Shown piece by piece: positions 15,701 to 18,700 of a stretch of DNA of 64,000 nt. This DNA comes from Cristatella mucedo (Eukaryota; Bryozoa; Phylactolaemata; Cristatellidae), in assembly GCA_009760855.2 (NCBI GenBank), contig WPIO01000037.1, positions 2,611,501 to 2,675,500 of the forward strand, read 5' to 3'. The translations under genes were made by a program, and so were the position numbers. The notes below the pieces were generated by a model. The model was not told the origin of the DNA. It saw nothing but the letters and a program-made list of their open reading frames with translations, and did no database searches. Position 1 is the first letter of the stretch, and each line of letters opens with the position of its first letter.

Positions 15701-18700
15701 TCAAGCTCATCTAGCATTATATAGACGAGGCTCTTGAATAAGCTAATATTTGCTTCTGCTTTATCGTTCGGCGCATGCAGCAATGCTGTCTCTTTTTTGC
15801 CAGTGAATGGGTCACAGGTCACTTTTCTTGTGATGTTCGACGGGGCCCCGGCTCGAAACTGGTCGACGAGCGCCTACCTCGGTCTGCCGACCGCCTACAC
15901 TGGACGTGCGTACCTGGCATGGAGCGAGTACAATCGCACACGGAACCATACGCTAACGGTCAGTGCCTGGAACCTGGTCACCAACGCTTGGATGAACACG
16001 TCGCAGACCGTCTGGGTGGACTACAGGGTGCAGGACGTCAAGACCGTACCCAACACGACGTTCTTGCGGCCTGGCGACCCTGTTGCTCTCAACGTGACGA
16101 TGCTTCGCGGATCGCGCTTCAACAGCGTTGTGACGTATGGCGACGGTCTCTCGGACAGCATGTACGAGGACGAGCTGCTGAGCGACGGCTCGATCGTGTA
16201 CGTGCACTCGTTTGCCGTCGCCAACAACTACACGGTGGTGGTGAACGCCACGAATGCAGTGACGTCGTGCGCGTGCAATAACAATACGCTGAAGATGATC
16301 GTGCAGAATCCGGCTGCCGGCCTGCACTTGGCCACCAATTCGCCGGTCAGCATTCCGAACGCCGGCACCGGGCTGGCCGTGCTCACGCTCAGCTTCGATG
16401 GCAGCGTGCTGCCGCCCACCGACGCGTTCGTGCTGTACACAATGGGCGATGCACCGACGGCGAGCAGCACGTTCTCGCACTACCTCGTGATTAGCACGGC
16501 GTCACCAGCCAACGACACGTACGTGTACAGCACGTTCGGCACGTACAACGTCAGCCTGAACGTGTCGAACTTCGTCAGCTACCAGTTCTTCCAGGCCGTG
16601 ATCGACGTCGACCAGGTGGTGCTCAATCTGGCCATCGTCAGCGACCTGAAGCTCGTCGTCTTTAACGTCACTGTCGTTCAATTTAACATCAGCATGACCT
16701 GGGGCTCAAGGGTGCTGCTCACGTGGTACGACACACAGCCGCCTTCTGCTGGCGCCAGCATCAGCAAGCTTTCACGCTGGTCGGCAATTTAAACTAGACT
16801 GCTTACATCGGAGTTAGTGCATGCATGCATGCGTGTGTGTGTGTGTGTGTGTGTGTGTGTGTGTGTGTGTGTGTGCGCGTGTGCGCGCGCGCGTGTGTGT
16901 GTGTGTGTGTGTGTGTGTGTGTGTGTATGAGTTCGTGCATATTCATGTGTGCACGTTTTTATGTGCTCATGGGTTGATTCTTCTGCCTGCTATGTAAATG
17001 AGGTTGCTGAATAAGCTGATCCATAATGTGTGCTCAGGTATGCTGAAATGGCGCACGTTACCACCACTAATCAGTTGAAAGAAATGCAGTTTGCTTAGGG
17101 TACTACACAAATGTATTAATTAATATTGCAATTTCCACCACTGGTGTGGTTTTGCAAAGGCTTCCACTTTTAGGCAGGGGATGCGAGCAATTGCCAGCTT
17201 CGATGGTACTCACTCTGGCGGTTCAGTCGTGTGTCTGTGGTGGTTGCTAGCCTTGCATGCGGCTCTTGCTTTCTCACGCAGGAACTGGCTGGATGGCACG
17301 GCCAGTGAGAACGCCTCGTACGTGTCAGCCGGAACGAATATGAAAAGGCACACATACGCAAAAGTAGGCATTTATTACACTCAAGCGATCGCCGTGAATA
17401 CTGTCGGCCAAACGGTAGCTGCCCTACAAACTCCTGTCATCGTTCAGCAACCTGTCGCCGGATTCGTGCTGATACCTAGTAAGTGCACTGTCATCTTCGG
17501 GCGTGACAATGATGGAGAGGATAGGTGATAACTCTTCGTAGATATTGCTTTGATTCTTTATAATTAATTTTAATAAGAATAATCCTTAATAATAATAAAA
17601 ATACATTTGTATAGTGCCCTCAGAGAGCTTAACTTCTTTCTAGGCACTTGGCAGTTGCTGCAAAGAAGCATGATCAAATGGTTAGTTTAAGCATGCTCAA
17701 TGACAACAAGCATAACATGGTTAGTGGTGGCATGCACAGAGTCAGCATGGGTATTTGGTAACTGGCAGCATGCGCAGTGTCAGCAGGCATAAGTAGACAA
17801 AATACGAATTTAATGGCCCTACTAAATGCATTGATAAATATTTGTAGCAATAAAGCATGTGTGTAGTGTCCCTAGATAACCAATTTCATTTTAGCATCTT
17901 TACATATACTTGAACAGCAGCATGTCAATTAATTGGTTGTCAAATTCATGATTGCAGCATGCATTCAAATGCCGAGATAGACAGTTGGATTACGCTATTT
18001 TATGTCATCCAGTCAAGGAATTACGTGATGTCAGGTGCTAGTGATTTTCCTGCTTGGGGAGCATACTAATGATAAAGCCAGACCGCCAATTAATTCGAAT
18101 AATTGATTAATAATCTATTTTAATAATCAATTAATAATTTTTAATAATTAATTAATAATTGAGTAATTTGATTAATTTGAGGTAGGTTTGAGGTGCAGCT
18201 AAGCGACTGGAGTCAGAAGAGTGGGTGCTACGATGAGAAGCCTGAGTAGGAAGCAATTTGGAGATAGTGTAGAGTAAGGAATGTGAATGATGCTAAGTCT
18301 TAGATGCATAGGGCCCTATGCTAACTAACCAAAATCTCGGACCAGGTGTTGTACAACAACTGTTGGAGCTCGTGCTTGCCGTTGTTGAGAGTACACACCA
18401 TGGTCACTTTATGTACTAAACATTTTGCCACTGCAGGATAGAATTAGGAGGGCAGGTCAGGCCGACGACAGGCAGAGAAAGAGGCCTCTGCTTGTCCCAG
18501 GTGGTTGGGGCAGTGTGTTATTGGCTATGTCCATGACGTATGTGGGCTCAGGTGTTGCTGACCTGTACTGGGCTGACATCTCCGATATTCAGACAATATT
18601 TGAATGACATATAATAATAATACATTTGATAAAGCGCCCTCAGAGAACTGAATCTCTGTCTTGGTGCTTTACATATGCTGCAAAGGAAACACGATTGAAT

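Follow-up and report, generated by a model that had tools for sequence, protein, structure and literature searches.

The 3' ends of vertebrate L2 and MIR elements have a short GC-rich stem followed by an AT-rich end. In the zebrafish elements ZfL2-1 and ZfL2-2, retrotransposition needs a 3' stem-loop, and a basic region between the endonuclease and the reverse transcriptase (RT) binds this stem-loop (PMC4176376). In L2-type 3' stem-loops the loop has ~5-7 nt, and 4-6 bp separate it from an asymmetric internal loop (PMC5135761). A first-pass annotation of a 64-kb stretch of DNA from Cristatella mucedo (the window, meaning the whole stretch analyzed) had placed a stem-loop at the 3' end of a LINE and had read paired changes in its stem as RNA structure kept in successive source elements. 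Its remark that such a stem-loop is the RT recognition site in related LINEs agrees with the description of the L2 LINEs in PMC4176376. In general layout the element analyzed here resembles ZfL2-1 and ZfL2-2: a stem-loop at the 3' terminus precedes a repeat, and in the basic region between the endonuclease and the RT the basic residues are spaced alike (PMC4176376). It differs from them in ending in (ATT)n. With UnaL2 of the eel it shares a stem-loop with an internal irregularity and a short 3' tandem repeat, whereas the loop of UnaL2 is GGAUA and its repeat (TGTAA)n, in place of the UURAGU-type loop and (ATT)n found here (PMC5135761).

Results

The hairpin is the 3' tail of an abundant LINE

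The RT open frame of the LINE that has its tail at 2849-2901 lies on the minus strand at 3215-4633 (Pfam RVT_1, PF00078, E 9.3e-32), and the C-terminal part of the same protein lies in another frame (3067-3534, minus strand), as in a frameshifted copy. This RVT_1 domain upstream of the common LINE 3' end identifies the element as a non-LTR retrotransposon, and the solved chains closest to the window RT by sequence include LINE-1 ORF2p and R2. Copies of differing length, truncated at the 5' side, share one 3' end point and a simple-repeat ATT tail, as LINEs do, and RT matches adjoin hairpin tails at many loci, both in the unselected set described below and in the stretches L002-L008. The upstream RT, the common end point and the ATT tail thus bear out the annotation's placing of the hairpin at the 3' end of a LINE. 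In LINE sense the 3' end reads AAAGCGCCTAGAAAGAGATTRAGTTCTCTGAGGGCGCTTTATCAAGTG, followed by ATT repeats.

The profile made from window copies gave 26 matches at E<1e-3 in the 64 kb, with a best E of 2.1 in the reversed-window control. The hairpin-bearing tail is very abundant in the genome (572 Mb in 688 contigs), where a 35-place pattern, exact except that the CpG states were left free, had 13,815 matches, compared with 0 for its backward control. In viral contigs a pattern search gave 0 relatives, and of 10 pattern matches obtained with the RT none was confirmed. The window also holds a frame with a PKD domain.

Judged from its sequence, the LINE is probably of the stringent type and L2-like; the L2 label is given because of the tail-binding region. 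In the longer copy on the minus strand of L031 (1786-2253), the stretch corresponding to the linker between endonuclease and RT is LWFTADIKLAKSTKRKLEKAYKR. The six basic ZfL2-1 positions that were mutated in PMC4176376 are all K or R in L031, and L012 agrees at 6/6. Compared with the published linker, L031 and L012 match at W325 and E341 and have Y for W344 and L for P324; positions were counted from W325, and an ungapped 23-residue alignment of the two published proteins was assumed for the offset between them. Older, broken copies, such as window 54797-54931 and L023, keep fewer of the basic positions. The L031 fragment also contains an SDH motif, possibly that of an AP-type endonuclease; the fragment had no Pfam match at E up to 0.1, and no full-length copy was seen.

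Several further features of the repeat were observed. The tails at 26378-26608 and 2842-3072 in the window are 100% identical over 231 bases, which may reflect very recent activity or duplication; beside the former, on the opposite strand, lies a 110-base piece of the element that is 97% identical (26684-26793). Among the matches listed, eight tail copies ~4.36 kb apart occur on one strand of G000:C26:961168-991745, a tandem array that seemingly carries a LINE piece. Apparently very short insertions occur in L040 and L045, which retain just some twelve bases before the hairpin together with the tail. A second LINE family, with a C-terminus 31-49% identical, is found at L025:4452 (plus), L027:5619 (minus), L033:4079 (plus) and L033:1225 (minus); all four share another 3' end, which in two of them continues into ACATTACATTAC-like repeats.

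Tail copies fall into three subfamilies

The unselected set consisted of the window and 25 stretches of 10 kb and contained 84 copies with ungapped arms (77 distinct). L002-L008 were kept out of it as they had been chosen by similarity to the copy at 17613, and L001 was dropped as the window's own place. Together with 19 copies from L002-L008, 103 copies with ungapped arms were available among 116 rows in total.

The 84 unselected copies comprise subfamily A (37 copies, tail TTTATCAAG), subfamily B (42 copies, tail TATA-CAAA) and subfamily C (5 copies, with TGAAT after the 5' arm). Stem position 3 is U in subfamily B and C in subfamilies A and C, and B pairs U-G there. Where an RT match lies within 1.5 kb upstream (L002-L008 included), 19 of the 20 A copies adjoin an RT 59-100% identical to that of the window, and the remaining one has an RT 1.3 kb away that is 39% identical. 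For subfamily B, 30 of 34 copies adjoin an RT with 34-73% identity, and four have one at 80-94%, perhaps the RT of a neighbour. Subfamily B is probably older than A because the identity of the adjoining RT is lower, although decay after insertion also lowers those figures.

The hairpin folds in well-kept copies

In LINE sense (the minus strand at 17613) the hairpin consists of a 6-7 bp stem, then an asymmetric internal loop, and beyond it a stem of 5 bp closed by a UURAGU-type loop; (ATT)n comes after the hairpin. The subfamily A folds, with a 6-nt loop, 5 bp and a 4/2 internal loop, agree with the published description of 3' stem-loops in L2 LINEs of the stringent type. Tails typed as typical of subfamilies A, B and C fold alike, the stem of lineage A having two extra A-U pairs at its base.

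Ten window copies were folded, each of the four best A copies being compared with 200 shuffles. Arm states are given below as the CpG of the 5' arm and that of the 3' arm, in LINE sense. The four well-kept A copies are all CG/CG and lie at 2849-2901 (minus strand, z -4.75), 26549-26601 (plus, z -4.94), 33709-33761 (plus, z -5.17) and 56732-56784 (plus, z -3.81, then the ATT tail); their outer stem has 7 bp or more, and 0/200 shuffles were as good for each. Intermediate folds were obtained for the TG/CG copy at 25711-25763 (plus, z -2.91) and for a CG/CG copy of subfamily C at 45925-45976 (plus, z -2.60), and the TG/CA copy at 46639-46691 (minus) had z +0.62.

The sequences quoted in the annotation are correct: AGTGCC..GGCACT at 17613 and 20147, AGCAC..GTGCT at 42405 and AGTGCC..GGCGCT at 25713. 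The stem-loop itself is borne out in the well-kept copies (z -3.8 to -5.2). Three of the four copies cited for paired changes had no significant folding advantage over shuffles: the focal copy, a hairpin with the start of the tail at 17599-17650 (minus, subfamily B, U-A at pair 3, z -0.84), the TG/CA copy of subfamily B at 20133-20184 (minus, z -1.05) and the CA/TG copy at 42391-42442 (minus, z -1.68). The outer stem forms in the folds of the first and third and is absent from the minimum free energy fold of the second. Every cited change is a C-to-T or G-to-A transition in one of the stem's two CpGs. The pair at 25713, where the plus strand is the sense strand, is U-G in LINE sense, and this wobble, cited as evidence of structure, is one CpG-decay state among several. 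Copies left out of the earlier count include uncompensated ones, all on the minus strand, at 18618-18670 (CA/CG, an A-C mismatch), 27536-27584 (CG/CA, a C-A mismatch) and 36131-36178 (subfamily C, CA/CA, two mismatches).

The window has a further TG/CA copy of subfamily B at 51221-51272 (minus) and older copies at 1860-1911 (plus, subfamily B), 21145-21194 (minus, subfamily B), 23254-23306 (plus, TG/CG), 31775-31823 (plus), 43751-43802 (plus, TG/TG), 45056-45106 (plus, TG/TG, with a gap in the 3' arm) and 50263-50314 (minus). Most copies had been said to end in AGCGCC..GGCGCT, yet of the 22 window copies whose arms have no gap, only 5 carry CG in both. The six outer pairs are without exception standard in 11/22 window copies and 40/84 unselected copies.

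The 64-kb window gave no Rfam match at gathering score, and no LINE-tail family was among the six weak Rfam matches at E up to 10 in 25500-26700, around two copies. A hairpin on the minus strand at L015:4336-4371 pairs AGATGCTC with GAGCATCT in an 8-bp outer stem around a similar GAGA/TCTC core, which looks like a stem swap. It was seen once and without an ATT tail, and may be due to chance, to a different repeat or to a tail that has diverged.

Pairing in the sample largely follows subfamily

RNAalifold over all 84 copies gave no pairs, so the named structure was counted instead. In these copies 85.6% of cells pair, against 39-59% for slid structures, and pair C3-G34 is CG in 30, UG in 22, UA in 13 and other in 12. 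Shuffles of letters reached the observed percentage paired in 11/500 cases, the cells changed on both sides in 15/500, the covariation score in 18/500 and the count of pairs changed on both sides in 158/500; low fractions of this kind can arise among related sequences without structure. When whole arms were shuffled, P over all 11 pairs was 0.003 pooled and 0.09 within subfamilies. The four outer pairs outside the CpGs gave P 0.023 unstratified and 0.054 within subfamilies, a trace of association, and the cited pairs 4-35 and 5-34 gave within-subfamily P of 0.30 and 0.88.

A covariation check of the kind that the annotation had proposed, made on the unselected copies, did not support it: with a tree-based null written in the style of R-scape (84 copies, 40 simulations), 0/11 stem pairs were significant, the lowest E being 0.92. 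Among the strongest column pairs are 38-45, 4-38 and 4-45; these link stem position 3 with the subfamily tail, not with the position that it pairs with. The pooled association between the arms is largely a subfamily difference. No linked marker separates the TG/CA from the TG/TG copies of subfamily B (12 and 14, of which 3 and 5 are from L002-L008). Parsimony with midpoint rooting gives TG/CG as the root state of the arms, and TG/CA is one CpG transition away from it. Compensated doubles make up 11/23 in the unselected copies. Of the changes that start from a pair, 17/29 on internal branches vs 58/160 on terminal branches leave the position paired (Fisher P 0.038).

The two arms mutate independently

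The genome counts were made on copies that carry one CpG transition per arm and match the pattern exactly elsewhere, and they cover the two CpG pairs only. Across the whole genome (n=1,236) there are 551 TG/TG, 257 TG/CA, 284 CA/TG and 144 CA/CA copies, or 541 compensated vs 695 uncompensated (odds ratio 1.09, 95% CI 0.85-1.39, P 0.52), and the two arms mutate independently at both cited pairs. The single-change class CG/TG has 1,020 genome copies, and a hand tally of 100 listed pattern matches contained 3 CG/TG and 5 CG/CA.

Among fetched copies, almost all of which have G in the loop, A-type tails account for 21/23 CA/TG, 21/21 CA/CA, 10/21 TG/CA and 14/25 TG/TG, so that a good part of the classes with a 5'-arm TG comes from subfamily B. 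If the counts are scaled by these shares, ~309 TG/TG, 122 TG/CA, 259 CA/TG and 144 CA/CA would remain, with no excess of compensated copies. In the 3' arm of double-changed copies the ratio of TG to CA is about 2:1 (835:401) regardless of the state of the 5' arm, a bias that symmetric CpG decay does not account for. Most of the counted doubles are post-insertion mutations in dead copies, and for this reason the independence of the arms removes the evidence that had been offered for structure, but not hairpin function.

Discussion

We think it very likely that the hairpin is an L2-like LINE 3' tail whose variation comes from a subfamily difference and independent CpG decay, the seemingly compensated copies being chance combinations. 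In the LINE RNA the tail would form a stem in two parts, separated by an asymmetric internal loop and capped by a 6-base loop, directly before (ATT)n. By analogy with the zebrafish and eel relatives, its likeliest function is recognition by the RT of the LINE itself; the LINE protein would most likely bind the hairpin by means of the basic region that lies between its endonuclease and RT, and target-primed reverse transcription would start in the ATT tail. At the level of the source elements, variation would consist of U in subfamily B vs C in A and C at stem position 3, with U-G pairing kept. After insertion, CpG decay would strike each arm independently, and TG/CA and CA/TG copies may arise where this decay and the subfamily difference combine by chance. 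Independent mutation of CpG sites, which the annotation had itself named as the explanation that would tell against its proposal, is what we found, together with a subfamily C/T difference that keeps U-G.

That compensatory changes at two stem positions were selected for RNA structure in successive sources, as first proposed, now appears very improbable. TG/CA does occur in 4/22 window copies and CA/TG in 1/22, and the unstratified excess of pairing over arm shuffles and the scarcity of letter shuffles that reach the cells changed on both sides point the same way; against this stand the arm independence in the 1,236 copies, where compensated states are fewer than uncompensated ones, the lack of a significant pair among the 11, the weaker signal within subfamilies, and the folding of three of the four cited copies no better than shuffles to a significant degree. 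Inverted-repeat correction can create matching changes in both arms, and the arms of the hairpin are short inverted repeats, so that template switching, whether in replication or in reverse transcription, could correct or keep them at the DNA level without the RNA having any function. This we regard as highly improbable: the compensated pairs that it predicts are not in excess, the independence of the arms opposes a main role for it, and the hairpin sits at the LINE 3' end point, like the known recognition hairpins (PMC4176376, PMC5135761).

Weak hints of constraint at the source level remain. Source elements may have kept the hairpin by sequence conservation and tolerated G-U wobbles, drifting from C to U and not to mismatch, with no covariation; this is compatible with the subfamily and CpG-decay reading that we prefer, and we give it somewhat less than an even chance. 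The better keeping of pairing on internal than on tip branches, the wobble retained by the subfamily B change at pair 3, and the rank of TG/TG, with two wobbles, as the commonest of the four double states are all consistent with such constraint, but the numbers are small, C-to-T decay also yields wobbles, and CG/TG did not outnumber CG/CA in the hand tally. A further step is more doubtful: active lineages might hold the hairpin under a wobble-tolerant constraint without compensatory pairs, with C-to-U change passing through U-G in subfamily B, and with the young A stem strengthened to CG/CG plus two A-U pairs at its base.

Our literature search on covariation or compensatory change in LINE tails listed no paper that dealt with LINE tails, as judged by title and abstract, and one of those listed concerned a LINE-1 ribozyme; this does not imply that the matter is unpublished. 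In a high-copy repeat, paired CpG transitions can look like covariation, and cross-tabulating the states of the two arms in a 2x2 table reveals this at once. With its 13,815 pattern-matching tails, this LINE would be a rich system for dating changes in an RT recognition hairpin; if the active lineages do hold the stem in the wobble-tolerant way just described, it would amount to a stepwise tightening of the handle of the RT, datable within one genome.
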